Shown piece after piece: positions 3,857 to 55,934 of a stretch of 64,000 nt of DNA. The translations under genes were made by a program, and so were the position numbers. Position 1 is the stretch's first letter, and each line of letters starts with the position of its first letter. The stretch spans positions 1-64,000 of the forward strand of contig JACDAL010000148.1 in assembly GCA_013695465.1 (NCBI GenBank), in the 5' to 3' direction. Source of the stretch: Actinomycetota bacterium (GTDB lineage: Bacteria > Actinomycetota > CADDZG01 > WHSQ01). The notes under the pieces were generated by a model, which saw only the letters and a list, made by a program, of their open reading frames with translations, was not told where the DNA came from and did not search any database.

Positions 3857-5094
3857 GGGACGGTGATGTCGGGCTCATCGTGAGTTCCTTCTTGGAGCGG
3901 CTCGACGAGGTGGTCGAGCGCAGCATGGAAGCAATCTCGCAAGCTGTGCCTTCCTATGCTCGTGCCGGTGACGCGTATATGGAGGACGTGAGAGAGGCGG
4001 TTCGAGAGACAGTTCTGAACCTGTCCACGAGCCTTGCTCAGCAGAGAGCCGTCACATCCGAAGAGCTCGCCTCGATTGAAAGAGTGGGCGCGCGCCGCGC
4101 TGAAGCGGGCATCCCTCTGCAGGATTTGTTGAGGGCCTATCGGACCGTTGTCAGGACATGTTGGGACGTGCTGTCCGAAGAGTGCCGCTCCTCGCAGGGA
4201 AGCGCGCTCGAAGCCAGCCTGATCCTCGCAGAAGCCATCCTGCGCTACACGGATCAGGTCTCCACTGCGGTGGCAGACGCCTATCTGAGCGCACAGAGAG
4301 CGATTGTGCGGGAACAGGAAGGGGCTCGCCGGGAGTTCCTGGCCGACGTCCTCTATGGGGTCGACGCGCAACCCGAGGACATCTTGAGGAGGGCTCACAC
4401 ATTCGGATACGACCTCTCGGAAGACTACATGGCCCTTGTCGGCCGAGGTCCCGAGCAGGATTCGCGCAAGGAGGCGATGGTGGCAGGTGCCGTTGCGCGG
4501 CTCTACGGCCCTTCGAGCGCCGACCCGATAGTGCTTCAAAAGGCAGAGCACACGATCGCCCTGGTGCCGGTGGCGGGCGAAAGCGATCCTGCTGCGATGC
4601 CCGAGAAGCTCGTTGCCGAACTGACAGGCGACTGGCGTTTCGGTGTTGGGGGGCCAGAGCCGGGACTCGAAGGAATCAGGCGTGCCTATCTAGAAGCGCG
4701 CGAGGCGCTCGAGATCGGAATGGGCCTCGAGCTCTCTGGTCTCGTGTACCGATTCGATGACCTGCTTCTCTATCACTTCCTACGAAGCGAGCCTGCACTG
4801 CTCGATCGTTTCGTTGAGACCACCTTGGGCCCACTGATCGAGTACGACGAGCGCCGCAAGGGGGAGTTGATCAAGACACTCGAGGCTTACTTCAACGCAG
4901 ATGGAAGCGTGAAGATGACGGGCAGTGCGCTGTTCGCTCATCCACACACGATCAGCTATCGGCTTAAGCAGGTCGAAAGGCTCACCGGGTGGTCACTGCA
5001 GAGCTCCGAGGACAAGCTGAGGCTCCAGCTCGCGTTGCGGGCCCACCGGCTTGCGTACAGCCGTCGCGAGGCAAGCGAGCCGCCCACAGGGTAG
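3853..5094 (+). CDS. PucR/CdaR-family transcriptional regulator
   Basis: 413 residues. The C-terminal ~60 residues carry the PucR helix-turn-helix: LIKTLEAYFNADGSVKMTGS, then HPHTISYRLKQVERLTG. The central part resembles the GGDEF-like CdaR sensor region, and the N-terminal ~150 residues are helical and likely sense a ligand. Members regulate purine, sugar-diacid or amino-acid use. The TTG start overlaps the previous TGA, suggesting coupling with the DUF302 gene. Target genes are unknown. Confidence 0.82.
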   Translation: MRDGDVGLIVSSFLERLDEVVERSMEAISQAVPSYARAGDAYMEDVREAVRETVLNLSTSLAQQRAVTSEELASIERVGARRAEAGIPLQDLLRAYRTVVRTCWDVLSEECRSSQGSALEASLILAEAILRYTDQVSTAVADAYLSAQRAIVREQEGARREFLADVLYGVDAQPEDILRRAHTFGYDLSEDYMALVGRGPEQDSRKEAMVAGAVARLYGPSSADPIVLQKAEHTIALVPVAGESDPAAMPEKLVAELTGDWRFGVGGPEPGLEGIRRAYLEAREALEIGMGLELSGLVYRFDDLLLYHFLRSEPALLDRFVETTLGPLIEYDERRKGELIKTLEAYFNADGSVKMTGSALFAHPHTISYRLKQVERLTGWSLQSSEDKLRLQLALRAHRLAYSRREASEPPTG

Positions 5095-5104
5095 CCTGCC
5101 GCCC

Positions 5105-6685
5105 ATGGCTCGTCGAGTTCTCATAGTCGGCTGGGACGGCGTGGACTGGAAGATACTTCGCCCCATGTTGGAGCGCGGCGAGCTCCCGGTCCTGAGTCGA
5201 CTCATGAGCAAAGGAGCTTACGGGGACTGTCTTTCGAGCGTTCCGTCACACTCTTGGTGTGCATGGCCTTCGTTCATGACGGGCTTGAATCCCGCCGGAC
5301 ACGGCGTCTTCGACATCCTCGAACACCGGCCCGGCGTTTCCAGGAGGCTGCCGATCACCTACAAGTCCATCAAGGCACGGACTATTTTCGACGACTTTTC
5401 CGCCGCCGATAAGACGTCTTTGGCTCTCAACATCCCCCTCACCTTTCCGGCCCCCGAGATCTCAGGCAAGGTCGTGGCCGGAGGCGTTCTGCCGGCCAGC
5501 CGTTCCTATACATGGCCGCCCGAGCTGCAGGTGGAACTTGATCGCAGGGCACCGTTTCCTGTGAACGGAATGAGCTGGACGACCTTCCGAAATCGACCAG
5601 AGCCCTTCCTGGACGAAACCGCGGCCATAACCGCCAAGCGACAGGCAGCCTTCGAGTATCTCTTGGACACAACGGAGTGGGACTTTGGGGTGCTCGTTTA
5701 CGTCTCTACCGATCGCATCCAGCATTGCCTGATGGAGTACATCCACCCTGAGCACCCTCGTTACGAGGGGCTGAGGAACTCCCCGATCGCCCGCAAGACC
5801 GAGGGCATCTATAAGCAGCTCGATGATGGCCTGGGTGAGTTGCTCAAACGAACCACCGACGACGATTTGGTCATGTTCATGTCCGACCACGGCCATCAGG
5901 CATGTACGCGCACGTGCACCATGGACAAAATTCTGCAGCATCTCGGCTACCTGAGCCTTTCTCGGGGATCCTTTGCTTTCAACCTCATCAGGTGGGGGCC
6001 CGGCCGGCGCATCGCCCGGCGCATCTACGATCTCTTGAAGCTGCACGGCAAGATCTCCATCCCAGCGTCACCTGTCGAGTGGTCCCAAACGAGGGCCTAT
6101 ACGAGCGTGGTTTCCACAGGAGAAGGCGTCTCGGTGAACCTCAAAGGTAGGGAGCCGAAGGGCATCGTCGAGCAGCGCGACTACGAGCGTGTGCGCAGCG
6201 ACGTGGCGCAGGCGTTGACTGAGTTCCGGGATCCCGAGACGGGGGCGGCCCCAATTCATAAGATTTACCGCAAGGAAGAGGTGCTGAGCGGAGAGTTCCT
6301 CGACGTGGCACCCGACCTGTTGCTGGTGCCCGCCCCGTTTTACTCGTTGACGCACGCCAGAGGAATGGTCGAGGAGGCGGACTGGTTGTCTGGTGACCAC
6401 CGTCTCGAGGGAGTCCTGGTCGCCACCGGCCCCGAGGTAACGCCCGGCCCCCTCACGGAGACCGCCCGGCTCATAGACCTCGGTCCTACCGCGTTGGCGA
6501 CCCTGGGCGTGCCCAGCGCGATTCCCCGCGACGGCAAGGTGCTGAGAGCGCTGGCGGGCTCGGCCACGCTCCAAATCGTGGAGGGCTCCGCCGAAGCACA
6601 GCGCACCGCAGGGGAGGCAGCACTAAGCTCCGATGAGGAGAAAGAGGTTGAGGAACACTTGCGGGGACTGGGTTACGTCGAGTAG
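5105..6685 (+). CDS. Alkaline-phosphatase-superfamily phosphodiesterase/phosphohydrolase
   Basis: 526 residues from ATG 5105; the tracked start at 5051 overlaps the previous gene and adds no domain residues. Metal-binding motifs of the superfamily are visible: GWDGVDW at the N-terminus, the nucleophile region WPSFMTGLNPAGHGVFD, FMSDHGHQ mid-protein and SGDHRLEGVLVATGP near the C-terminus. It belongs to the 'predicted AlkP superfamily' group. No signal peptide is seen, so it is probably cytoplasmic. The substrate cannot be inferred. Confidence 0.82.
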   Translation: MARRVLIVGWDGVDWKILRPMLERGELPVLSRLMSKGAYGDCLSSVPSHSWCAWPSFMTGLNPAGHGVFDILEHRPGVSRRLPITYKSIKARTIFDDFSAADKTSLALNIPLTFPAPEISGKVVAGGVLPASRSYTWPPELQVELDRRAPFPVNGMSWTTFRNRPEPFLDETAAITAKRQAAFEYLLDTTEWDFGVLVYVSTDRIQHCLMEYIHPEHPRYEGLRNSPIARKTEGIYKQLDDGLGELLKRTTDDDLVMFMSDHGHQACTRTCTMDKILQHLGYLSLSRGSFAFNLIRWGPGRRIARRIYDLLKLHGKISIPASPVEWSQTRAYTSVVSTGEGVSVNLKGREPKGIVEQRDYERVRSDVAQALTEFRDPETGAAPIHKIYRKEEVLSGEFLDVAPDLLLVPAPFYSLTHARGMVEEADWLSGDHRLEGVLVATGPEVTPGPLTETARLIDLGPTALATLGVPSAIPRDGKVLRALAGSATLQIVEGSAEAQRTAGEAALSSDEEKEVEEHLRGLGYVE

Positions 6686-6749
6686 GCGGGGGTGGGCGGT
6701 GGCTGAGGGTCGACCGCTTTACGCCGGCCGGGGCACCTAAACTGAGTCG

Positions 6750-7790
6750 ATGCGCATCGGCCTGGCACTTCCTCACTACGACTCGAGCTTCGAGGGCAAG
6801 CCTGCCTCGTGGGACGGGGTGCGTCGCTGTGCCGAGGTCGCCGAGCGCTCGGGCCTCGATTCCGTCTGGGTCTCAGACCATCTCTTCCTCGATTACTCGA
6901 AGTACGGGGGCTCCATCGAGGTCCGAGGAGCGTTGGAATGTTGGACCACGATGTCGGCGCTGGCGGCCTGCACTCAGAGGATCAGGATCGGCTCACTGAC
7001 GCTGTGCAACGACCTGCGCAACCCCGCCGTGGTGGCCAAGATGGCTGCCACGCTTCATCTGCTGTCGCAGGGGCGCTGTGAGCTCGGCCTCGGCGCGGGG
7101 TGGTACGAGCCCGACTACCGCGCAACCGGAATCGAGATGTCCCGCCCGGGTGTGCGCATCGACAGGTTGGCCGAGGCAGCAGAGATCATCAAACGGCTGC
7201 TGCACGGCGAAGAGCTGTTCTTCAAGGGAGACCACTACGTTGTGGAGGGCGCTTTATGCCGCCCCGCTCCGCGAGATGGGGGGCCGCGGCTGTGGATCGG
7301 GGGCAAGGGCGATCGGCTGCTCGACGCCGCAGCTCGAACCGCCGACGGCTGGAACTTCTCGTGGCTCGGCTCCCAGGAGACCTACGCGAAGCGCGCCGAG
7401 GTCGCCGATGAGGCGTGCCTGAGGCACGGGCGGGCCCCCGAGGACCTCGCCAGGTCGGTGGGCGCCTACGTTCTCGTGGGTCGTGACGAGAAGGACGCGC
7501 TCAAGCGCTTCGAGAGACTCGCCGAGAGAACCCCTGCAGGGATCCTTTCGGGAGATAGCTCCCGAGGGGCAGTATCCTGGGACGAGTTCCGGCGCACCCG
7601 TATCGCCGGCGGAGTTCCCGAGGTCACCGACCGCTTGGGAGCGCTCCGGGAGCTGGGCGTCCAGGAGGTGGTCGTCGGCCTCGGCGCCGTGCCATTTCAG
7701 GTGTCGGACGAGGAAGACATTGAGTTGATCGGGACGGAGATCATTCCGGCCCTGAGAACCAGCGATCCGCTGGAGGATCGCGCTAGATAG
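6750..7790 (+). CDS. LLM-class F420-dependent oxidoreductase
   Basis: 346 residues of the luciferase-like monooxygenase fold. The start MRIGLALPHYDSSFEG, VWVSDHLFL, IRIGSLTLCNDLRNPAVVAKMAATL and LGLGAGWYEPDY are typical of F420-dependent members. It should use reduced F420 on an unknown substrate. The last residues (SDPLEDRAR) are encoded by a dispersed palindromic repeat that recurs just downstream. Confidence 0.85.
   Translation: MRIGLALPHYDSSFEGKPASWDGVRRCAEVAERSGLDSVWVSDHLFLDYSKYGGSIEVRGALECWTTMSALAACTQRIRIGSLTLCNDLRNPAVVAKMAATLHLLSQGRCELGLGAGWYEPDYRATGIEMSRPGVRIDRLAEAAEIIKRLLHGEELFFKGDHYVVEGALCRPAPRDGGPRLWIGGKGDRLLDAAARTADGWNFSWLGSQETYAKRAEVADEACLRHGRAPEDLARSVGAYVLVGRDEKDALKRFERLAERTPAGILSGDSSRGAVSWDEFRRTRIAGGVPEVTDRLGALRELGVQEVVVGLGAVPFQVSDEEDIELIGTEIIPALRTSDPLEDRAR
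7762..7788. repeat. Dispersed palindromic repeat, copy 1
   Basis: GCGATCC-GCTGGA-GGATCGC followed by GCTAGAT. It can form a 7-bp hairpin and overlaps the 3' end of the F420 oxidoreductase gene. Related copies are at 7799 and 51132. Confidence 0.6.
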
Positions 7791-7850: not shown

Positions 7851-8129
7851 ATGAGTTTGCCAGGCGGTCCCGAGCTTTTCATCATCTTGTTCGTGATTTT
7901 GCTGGTCTTCGGCGCCTCGCGCCTGCCCAAACTAGCCCGCTCCATGGGCCAGGCCGGCAAGGAGTTCAAGACGGGAATGCGCGAGGGTTTCAAGGATCAG
8001 CCGGTCGAAGGGCCGTGTCCTTTCTGTGGCATTGCGGTGGCCGAGGAGTCCAAATTCTGCCCCGGATGCGGCAAGAGCGCTGAGGACATCGTGGCGGAGA
8101 AGAACCGGAAAGAGGCCAGCTCCGCCTGA
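7851..8129 (+). CDS. tatA: TatA/E-like translocase subunit with C-terminal double zinc ribbon
   Basis: 92 residues. One N-terminal membrane helix (LFIILFVILLVFGASRLP) continues into the amphipathic helix KLARSMGQAGKEFKTGMREG, the TatA signature. Instead of the usual disordered acidic tail, residues 54-75 form CPFCG...CPGCG, a zinc ribbon. It would be inner-membrane and pore-forming with TatC, which is not in this window. GAAGGGAG precedes the ATG. The ribbon is unusual and may replace or regulate tail function. Confidence 0.8.
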   Translation: MSLPGGPELFIILFVILLVFGASRLPKLARSMGQAGKEFKTGMREGFKDQPVEGPCPFCGIAVAEESKFCPGCGKSAEDIVAEKNRKEASSA

Positions 8130-8173: not shown

Positions 8174-8500
8174 GTGATCTATGAGATAGGAGCTGAAATC
8201 GCTGCGCCCATCACCATTTACACGACTCGCTGGTGCGGGCACTGCCGCCGTCTCGCGCGTCGGCTCGCCGAGGCCGGCATCGAGGCTCCGATGATCGACA
8301 TCGATCGTGACGAGCATGCTCACCACGGACGGCGCATCGAGCAACAGACCGGCGGCTATAGGACGGTCCCTGCGGTCGAGATTGGCGACCGGCTGCTGGT
8401 CAACCCGACCGTCGCCGAAGTCACCGAGGCCCTGGCCGAGTCGGCCCCCCCGCCCCCTACACGGCTCCCGAGCTACTTCGGTACAAAACGCGGGCAGTAG
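8174..8500 (+). CDS. Glutaredoxin/mycoredoxin-like protein
   Basis: 108 residues with a thioredoxin fold. The redox motif CGHC sits in ITIYTTRWCGHCRRLARRL, followed by the cis-Pro strand GYRTVPAVEIGDRLLVNPT. Actinobacterial members reduce mycothiol mixed disulfides, but the glutathione/mycothiol preference cannot be read here. GTG is the only start close to the domain. The rhodanese-MoeB gene follows, suggesting sulfur or redox chemistry in common. Confidence 0.8.
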   Translation: MIYEIGAEIAAPITIYTTRWCGHCRRLARRLAEAGIEAPMIDIDRDEHAHHGRRIEQQTGGYRTVPAVEIGDRLLVNPTVAEVTEALAESAPPPPTRLPSYFGTKRGQ

Positions 8501-8583: not shown

Positions 8584-9735
8584 ATGGCTAATTTCAGAGA
8601 CCTTCTCAAGCAGGTGAAATCCGAGGTTTCGGAAACGACGCCCGAAGAGGTCGCCGCCCGCCGAGAGCGGGGCGAGAAGATCAGTCTTCTGGATGTGCGC
8701 GAGCCCGATGAGGTCGAGCAGGGCATCGTGCCCGGCGCCCACCACCTTTCTCGCGCCCACTTCGAGAGCCGCGTCGAAGACGTGCTGCCGGACAAGTCCT
8801 CCGAAGTGGTCGTCTATTGCGCCAGCGGAGTGCGGAGTGCGTTCGCCGCCCGCACCCTCGAGGATCTTGGATACGAGAGCGTCGCCTCGATGTCCGGGGG
8901 GTTCATTCGCTGGCGTGAGCTGGGATACGACTTCGACATCCCGCGCGTCCTCGACGCAGCACAGCGCGACCGCTATTCCCGTCATTTGATTCTTCCTGAG
9001 GTCTCCGAACGAGGTCAAAGCAGATTGCTCGATGCCAAGGTGCTGTGCATCGGCGCCGGAGGCCTCGGCTCGCCATCTCTGCTCTATCTGGCGGCCGCCG
9101 GCGTCGGGACGATCGGCATCGTCGACTCCGACGAGGTAGAGACCTCGAACCTTCAGCGTCAGGTAATTCACGACACGCACAAGGTCGGCATGAACAAGGC
9201 GGAGTCCGCAAAGGAGTCGATCAATCGGCTGAACCCGGACGTGAACGTGGTTGTGCACGCATTCCGCATCGATGAATCGAATGCGAAGGATCTCATCTCC
9301 TCTTACGACATCGTGGTCGACGGCTGCGACAACTTCGACACTCGATACGCGGTCAACGACGCCGCGGTGGCCTTGAGAAAGCCGGTCATCCACGGGTCTA
9401 TCTTTCGCTTCGAGGGCATGGCCTCCACGTTCATCCCCTATGAGGGGCCCTGCTACAGGTGCCTTTATCCCGAGGCCCCTCCGGCCGAGCTTGCCCCCAC
9501 CTGAGGGGAAGCAGGCGTCCTGGGCGTGCTCCCGGGCATCATCGGAACCATTCAGGCAAACGAGGTCTTGAAGCTCATAGTTGGATACGGGGAGCCTCTG
9601 GTGGGGCGGCTGCTGACCTTCGACGCGCAGTCCACTCACTTTGGCGAGGTAAGAGTGCGTCGTGACCCACAGTGCCCCGCCTGCGGCGAGACTGCCTCGC
9701 AGCGGACCGTTCAACTGGAAGAGGCAAGCGCCTAG
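8584..9735 (+). CDS. Rhodanese-MoeB/ThiF E1-like adenylyltransferase with in-frame UGA (candidate selenoprotein)
   Basis: The ORF track splits this gene at TGA 9502-9504, but the same frame continues to 9735 with perfect family sequence. Together they give 383 residues. Residues 1-120 are a rhodanese domain with active-site Cys79 (YCASGVRS). Residues ~125-383 are a MoeB/ThiF adenylyltransferase with the nucleotide loop IGAGGLGSPSLLYL and two zinc CxxC pairs (290/293 and 364/367). The UGA is codon 307, in APT-U-GEAGVLGV, exactly where homologues have the catalytic E1-like cysteine. A hairpin begins right after it. Either Sec is inserted here or a Cys codon has mutated to stop; the first is favoured. 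The role would be activating a ThiS/MoaD-like protein for sulfur transfer. Confidence 0.75.
9505..9533 (+). other. Putative bacterial SECIS-like hairpin after UGA
   Basis: GGG (9505-9507) pairs with CCC (9531-9533), AGCA (9510-9513) pairs with TGCT (9527-9530), and GC pairs with GC inside. The apical loop is GTCCTGG. The loop starts 13 nt after the UGA, a little closer than the usual ~16 nt or more for bacterial SECIS elements. Pairing was done by eye. Confidence 0.45.
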
Positions 9736-54770: not shown

Positions 54771-55934
54771 TCAGGCCGCAGACAGCGCTCGCAGGCGAGT
54801 CATGGCGGCGATTCCCAGCAGGGGGCCGGGCGCCAAGAAAGCGAAGGCCCAGCGCCAGCCGAACGCCCCCTCGAGGATGGGGATCAGCCAGATAGTGGCG
54901 ACGGTCAAGGTGAAGCCGAGGGCGAGCTGCAGCGTCAGGGCTGTTCCTACGTAGGCCTGATCGGCCACCTCCGTGACGATGGTCGAGAACTGGGCCGAGT
55001 CAGCCACGACTGTGAACCCCCATACCAATCCCACGATCAGAACGATCCACGCCGGGGCTCCTGCGAACAAGCCGATGACCAGCGCGCACAGACCCGAGGC
55101 CGCCATCATCAGCGATGTGGTCTGAGTCCGGCCCCAGCGGTCGCCCAGCACCCCACCCGCCCAGCAACCCAGCCCCCCGATTCCGATGACCATGAAAGTG
55201 GCGAATGCCGCGGCCCCGCCCCGCCCGCCCAGCACGGCTTCGGAGAAGAACAAGAAGAACCACGCCCACATCGCATAAAGCTCCCACATGTGGCCGAAAT
55301 AGCCCAGGCTGGCCAGACGGACGGCGCGGTTGGAGAACACCTGGCCCGCCTGGGTGGGGTCGAAGCGTGCCTGCGGGAAGGGATGGGGCCCTTCGGGAAC
55401 CAGGAAGCCGGCGACGAGCCCGCCGATGACGGTCAGGGCGGAGGTAGCCCAGATCACCGTCCGCCACTCGAGACCGCCGAGCCCGTTGACGAGATGCGGT
55501 GCCGCCGACCCGATCGTGAGAGCGCCCACCAAGATGCCCAGCGCCACTCCCCTTCCCTTCTGGAACCAGGTGGAGGACAGCTTGAGCGAGGGTGGGTAGA
55601 CCCCAGCCAGGAACATCCCCGTGAGAAACCGCAGGGGGAGGGCGAGGGCTACCCCGGAAGCGACCAGCAGGAGGAGGTTGGCAGCCGCGGCCCCTAGCGA
55701 GCCCCACAGGATGACCTTTGCTGGGGGGATTAAGTCCGCCAGGTTCGTGAGGCTCGAGAGCAGGGCTCCGGCGACGAAGCCGAGCTGAACCGCGATCGTG
55801 AGCCACGACGAGGTCGAGGCCGAGATGCCCCATTCTTCCCGGAGCTGCGGAATCACCGCGCTGGCAGAGAGCCAAGTGGTCATGGACAGCAGCAGCGATG
55901 CGGATTGAAGCGTCAGCGCCCTTGCGGGTGTCAC
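54771..55934 (-). CDS. MFS transporter
   Basis: 387 residues with about 12 hydrophobic segments. The motif after helix 2, GAALLSSLTNLADLIPPAKVILWG, is a loose form of motif A, and the second half has GGVLGDRWGRTQTTSLMMAAS. The substrate is unknown. Its start overlaps the MaoC-like gene stop by 4 nt, so the two form an operon. Confidence 0.87.
   Translation of the reverse strand: MTPARALTLQSASLLLSMTTWLSASAVIPQLREEWGISASTSSWLTIAVQLGFVAGALLSSLTNLADLIPPAKVILWGSLGAAAANLLLLVASGVALALPLRFLTGMFLAGVYPPSLKLSSTWFQKGRGVALGILVGALTIGSAAPHLVNGLGGLEWRTVIWATSALTVIGGLVAGFLVPEGPHPFPQARFDPTQAGQVFSNRAVRLASLGYFGHMWELYAMWAWFFLFFSEAVLGGRGGAAAFATFMVIGIGGLGCWAGGVLGDRWGRTQTTSLMMAASGLCALVIGLFAGAPAWIVLIVGLVWGFTVVADSAQFSTIVTEVADQAYVGTALTLQLALGFTLTVATIWLIPILEGAFGWRWAFAFLAPGPLLGIAAMTRLRALSAA

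Follow-up and report, generated by a model that had tools for sequence, protein, structure and literature searches.

A rhodanese-MoeB/ThiF gene with an in-frame TGA codon

Is the TGA codon inside an otherwise continuous gene of this Actinomycetota contig a stop, or is it read as selenocysteine (Sec)? The window (the whole stretch of DNA that was analysed, 64,000 nucleotides) contains at 8584-9735 a frame whose single internal stop is the TGA at 9502-9504 (residue 307), followed by 76 sense codons and a terminal TAG; ORF callers using translation table 11 end the gene at 9504. Its features are:

8584..9735, + strand: predicted rhodanese-MoeB/ThiF selenoprotein coding sequence, 383 residues with Sec307
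8638..8919, + strand: N-terminal rhodanese domain, residues 19-112 (Pfam PF00581, 67.6 bits)
8818..8820, + strand: rhodanese active-site Cys79 (VVYCASGVRS), assigned from sequence; at least 90% of the rows of a 41-sequence alignment have C79
8974..9681, + strand: ThiF/MoeB adenylation domain, residues 131-366 (Pfam PF00899, 283.4 bits, match crosses the TGA)
9451..9462, + strand: first zinc CxxC (C290, C293), assigned from sequence; near-invariant in the 41-sequence alignment
9502..9504, + strand: TGA, putative Sec307, at the E1-like (crossover-loop) cysteine, from the frame, homologue codons and structure-based alignments
9673..9684, + strand: second zinc CxxC (C364, C367), 3′ of the TGA, assigned from sequence; near-invariant in the 41-sequence alignment

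The original prediction held that the frame passes through the TGA into 76 codons of family sequence, and that the UGA falls at the catalytic cysteine of E1-like MoeB/ThiF enzymes. Both points are borne out, the first by the PF00899 match spanning the codon, and the second by alignments to solved structures, in which residue 307 aligns with the E1-like cysteine of E. coli ThiF (ERN-C-RTAGV) and MoeB (ALT-C-VEAGV); every row of the 41-sequence alignment has either Cys or TGA at this position. The zinc cysteines that it named are likewise present, as both CxxC pairs, and residues 157-162 of the adenylation domain form the nucleotide-binding GAGGLG motif. Against NCBIfam NF006444 (PRK08762, rhodanese-first MoeB) the protein scores 526 bits, where the cut-off is 449. 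The readthrough protein as modelled by AlphaFold2 is a confident prediction (mean pLDDT 89.8), with a dip in the block 301-310 around Sec307 that agrees with the flexible crossover loop of Uba4 (PMC7527816). Comparison of the window with eight relatives that carry the TGA gives identities of 0.72-0.82 after this codon and 0.74-0.77 before it, and the changes fall mostly on third positions.

Just upstream of the gene lies a glutaredoxin-like ORF (8174-8500, TRWCGHC), and further upstream a TatA-like protein with a zinc ribbon (7851-8129). A GC-periodicity screen of the window for further TGA readthrough frames returned one weak case, at 55123.

Alternation of TGA and cysteine codons among homologues

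The original prediction proposed that close relatives be aligned to see whether UGA alternates with UGC/UGU, and such alternation is seen: codon 307 is TGA in 28 genomes from two phyla, and TGC or TGT in the other homologues. Within the window's class, 22 genomes have a homologue, 17 of them with TGA and five with TGC. Of 397 genomes of the window's phylum, 17 matched a search pattern that allowed synonymous codons after the TGA, every one of them a member of the window's class. In Planctomycetota, the phylum of the metagenome-assembled genome (MAG) that carries L073, 11 of 392 genomes matched; the reversed control pattern gave zero matches. Cys forms make up most of 80 named loci drawn from many phyla, and L073 is the only one with TGA. 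On a tree of 90 rows there are approximately nine changes between the Sec and Cys labels, at least five of which are forced by well-supported branches; the idea that the Sec form arose once was therefore rejected, and gains or losses of Sec are repeated.

We note that in the window's class (L024-L045) the residue preceding Sec is always a threonine (APTU), and in Cys forms a serine or an asparagine (APSC or APNC). Two of the records (L068 and L075) are titled as a Bifidobacterium breve MAG; their homologues group with Gaiellales and Acidimicrobiales, and the bins are probably misnamed.

A conserved hairpin downstream of the TGA

A bacterial SECIS element was predicted close to the UGA, and a conserved hairpin does exist there, but it is not the one initially proposed, which began at the base immediately following the codon:

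9519..9536, + strand: putative SECIS; 5′ arm CCUGGG (9519-9524), loop CGUGCU (9525-9530), 3′ arm CCCGGG (9531-9536), from conserved pairing and third-base freeze

This hairpin has a predicted energy of -9.0 kcal/mol, and 14 nt separate the UGA from the 5′ arm. Counted sequence by sequence, all six pairs are kept in 28 of 28 TGA genes, and two-sided (compensatory) changes are found in two of the pairs (GCUGGG/CCCGGC in L155 and GCUCGG/CCGGGC in L164). The loop is CGUGCU (6 nt) in some TGA genes and 7 nt long in others, so that an ungapped pair count over all of them is uninformative, and the per-sequence count and the subset with 7-nt loops were used. In that subset (n=6) pairing is 100%, and sliding the helix drops it to 25-67%, with the qualification that choosing six sequences by loop length is a selection favouring this hairpin. 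Third-base identity over codons 312-316 is 0.88 in the TGA genes, compared with 0.445 gene-wide, and the corresponding values for the Cys genes are 0.43 and 0.38; the freeze is thus confined to the TGA carriers.

A published bacterial SECIS model sets limits of 3-9 nt for the loop, 4-16 bp for the upper stem, 16-37 nt for the distance from the UGA and ≤ -7.5 for the minimum free energy (MFE), and also asks for a G within the first two loop positions (PMC13188914). The hairpin at 9519-9536 falls within these limits, with a 6-nt loop, a 6-bp stem, 20 nt between the UGA and the loop, and a G in the second loop position with a U after it. Its loop begins 21 nt after the UGA, inside the 16-37 nt range, and the weak point conceded in the original prediction, an apical loop starting slightly close, at 13 nt from the UGA, therefore falls away.

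The next-base hairpin was rejected. It is a local optimum of RNAfold, which on the window alone favours a hairpin other than that at 9519-9536, yet its energy is ordinary for its composition (z = +0.85; 154 of 200 shuffles are at least as stable); no pair in it has a two-sided change, and among the 28 TGA homologues only that of the window can form all of its pairs. Nor does the GGG codon after the UGA hold up as a special stem base, since other TGA carriers have AAC, AGC, GGN, GCG or GAG at this position.

Selenocysteine machinery in the assembly

The assembly from which the window derives is a draft (2.55 Mb in 186 contigs, 89.5% complete), and all of the Sec genes that the original prediction suggested searching for (selA, selB, selD and a tRNA-Sec) are found in it. 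selB (354 bits) and selA (525 bits) are adjacent on contig 16, which also carries the tRNA-Sec (78.6 bits, gathering score 47) with a TCA anticodon in the DNA (UCA); selD (369 bits), on contig 47, itself contains an in-frame TGA, which lies at the usual Sec site (GUACKL). Sec insertion is thus supported by all of the in silico tests originally proposed.

Across the window's class, 19 of 24 genomes have selB above a cut-off of E ≤ 1e-80. At this cut-off selB was not found in G012 (98% complete) or G013 (83% complete), both of which have TGA in the gene and in selD, possibly because these assemblies are fragmented, with missing or broken contigs; four Cys-form genomes of the class also have selB. 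A strict dependence of the TGA form on selB therefore mostly holds, but the correlation is imperfect.

How the UGA is decoded

Standard ORF calling terminates at 9504, as expected if the UGA were a genuine stop or a truncation were programmed there, with the downstream region untranslated or reached by a low level of near-cognate readthrough. We consider this very improbable. The downstream codons evolve as coding sequence at the same rate as those upstream; the truncated form would lack the E1 cysteine and one pair of zinc ligands, yet this is the only ThiF-type gene found in the assembly; and neither the conserved SECIS nor the complete Sec machinery would otherwise have a reason to be present. 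That the window comes from a draft of many contigs could favour a pseudogene, or an error in sequencing or assembly that turned TGC or TGT into TGA, but the same TGA recurs in 28 genomes, which were assembled separately and belong to two phyla, and the SECIS is absent from Cys homologues; its recurrence, together with the coding constraint downstream, refutes this reading, to which we attach almost no probability. A genome-wide reassignment of UGA to sense, which the second in-frame TGA in selD might suggest, is just as remote, as there are ordinary TGA stops in the window (for example that of the TatA-like ORF ending at 8129), the selD codon is at a known Sec site, and the tRNA-Sec has a UCA anticodon.

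Taken at the level of sequence, the UGA at 9502-9504 is very probably decoded as selenocysteine. SelB and tRNA-Sec would carry out this decoding, directed by the hairpin at 9519-9536, and the product would be an E1-like enzyme of the MoeB type that carries its rhodanese domain at the N-terminus.

Planctomycetota variants

Three of the Planctomycetota homologues have a second TGA in the same polypeptide, at the rhodanese active-site cysteine (YU-GGGSRS or TU-GGGSRS), in addition to Sec at the E1 site:

L155, 218-1360: TGA at the rhodanese and E1 cysteines
L156, 1350-2444, - strand: TGA at the rhodanese and E1 cysteines
L157, 1347-2444, - strand: TGA at the rhodanese and E1 cysteines

The codons following the first TGA in these genes (TCG CTG CTT GCG GCG CA) are likewise frozen, and a hairpin (GCUUGC-GGC-GCARGC) can form after it. 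Five further homologues (L073 and L158-L161) have an Asp in place of the rhodanese Cys (YDAGGNRS), with Sec retained at the E1 site, so that a rhodanese-persulfide step cannot be general. As far as we could find, neither the double-Sec (rhodanese plus E1) homologues nor the Asp clade has been reported earlier in the literature; where a 2026 review deals with MoeB, it gives it with one Sec only (PMC13188914).

Genomic setting and predicted function

Apart from the rhodanese-MoeB/ThiF protein, no full-length ThiF-type match was found in the assembly, which has four carriers of the ThiS/MoaD type. One of these is in an operon with selD:

L169 (G000 contig 47), about 4449-7500: selD-mec-cysO-cysM operon, in which the stop codon of selD and the start of mec overlap (GTGA)

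The genes following selD are mec (Prok-JAB), cysO (ThiS family, ending in GG) and a cysM-like gene. In the window's class mec adjoins selD in 21 of 24 selD loci, and in most of these 21 the stop codon of selD either overlaps the start of mec or lies directly next to it. In mycobacteria, CysO and MoaD are activated by MoeZR (PMC3227635). As the sole ThiF-type activator found in the assembly, the enzyme probably loads carriers of the CysO/MoaD type, and from sequence and analogy we think it fairly probable that its clients are the CysO of this operon and MoaD/ThiS proteins. Standard gene callers truncate the gene at residue 306, so annotation of the assembly would list the one sulfur-carrier activator found there as a broken gene.

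By homology with Uba4 and MoeZ, the enzyme would adenylate a ubiquitin-like sulfur carrier at its C-terminal GG. The acyl group would then pass to Sec307 in the crossover loop, forming a selenoester, or Sec307 would instead resolve an acyl-disulfide; the persulfide sulfur of the rhodanese Cys79 would pass to a carrier thiocarboxylate and on to the synthesis of cysteine, molybdopterin or thiamine. The acyl-selenoester step is possible but somewhat short of an even chance, and the data do not separate it from acyl-disulfide resolution. It is equally possible that the inserted Sec has a redox role, resolving an acyl-disulfide or shielding the active site from oxidation, and forms no selenoester with the acyl group. 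The equivalent Cys of Uba4 guards the enzyme against self-conjugation under oxidation (PMC7527816), and most predicted selenoproteins are thought to be redox-active (PMC9312934); however, this same Cys is a thioester site, carrying Urm1 before attack by the rhodanese persulfide (PMC7527816), and the clade with Asp at position 79 retains Sec without a rhodanese cysteine to form the acyl-disulfide. A broader proposal, which we make more tentatively still, is that this is an E1 acting via an acyl-selenide, with both relay nucleophiles Sec in some Planctomycetota, and that the conserved selD-mec-cysO operon ties the pathway to selenium supply.

Comparison with known systems

A MoeB selenoprotein family has been predicted since 2005 from the Sargasso Sea and GOS metagenomes (PMC1088965, PMC2398784), and an example with one Sec has been given (MBT7809913.1; PMC13188914). 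In what these sources say of MoeB, they agree with the original prediction, which mentioned such metagenomic selenoproteins, and the gene described here is very likely a further member of the family. We did not find a publication that gives a clear SECIS and genome context for a MoeB selenoprotein. A metagenomic prediction of 20 years' standing thus becomes a testable case with a genome, SECIS, machinery and Cys-form relatives, and the presence of Sec where an E1-like enzyme has its acyl-accepting Cys poses a concrete chemical question, that of a selenoester or a redox role.

The likeness to the metagenomic proteins, as far as these are described, lies in Sec within a MoeB/ThiF protein (COG0476/PF00899), widespread Cys homologues and a bacterial SECIS downstream; those descriptions come without genome context, and the match to them is by family and Pfam domain. 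The window's protein differs from them in its complete Sec machinery, N-terminal rhodanese fusion, covarying SECIS, and alternation of TGA and TGC within one class. It has the same domain order and length as NF006444/PRK08762, whose name and description do not mention Sec. Among rhodanese selenoproteins (the UxxG and CxU forms and TsoB; PMC13188914) Sec is at the rhodanese site, as in L155-L157, and none of those in that source is described as a MoeB/ThiF fusion that has another Sec at its E1 site. The combination of adenylation and rhodanese domains, the E1 Cys site in the crossover loop and the activation of a ubiquitin-like carrier are shared with Uba4/MOCS3 and MoeZR/MoeBR (PMC7527816, PMC3227635), but in those enzymes the rhodanese domain is C-terminal rather than N-terminal, and the residue is Cys rather than Sec. 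A pair of CxxC motifs within the MoeB domain marks the MoeB/MoeBR type and is mostly absent in MoeZ (PMC3227635); the window's protein has both, like MoeB and MoeBR and unlike most MoeZ proteins.
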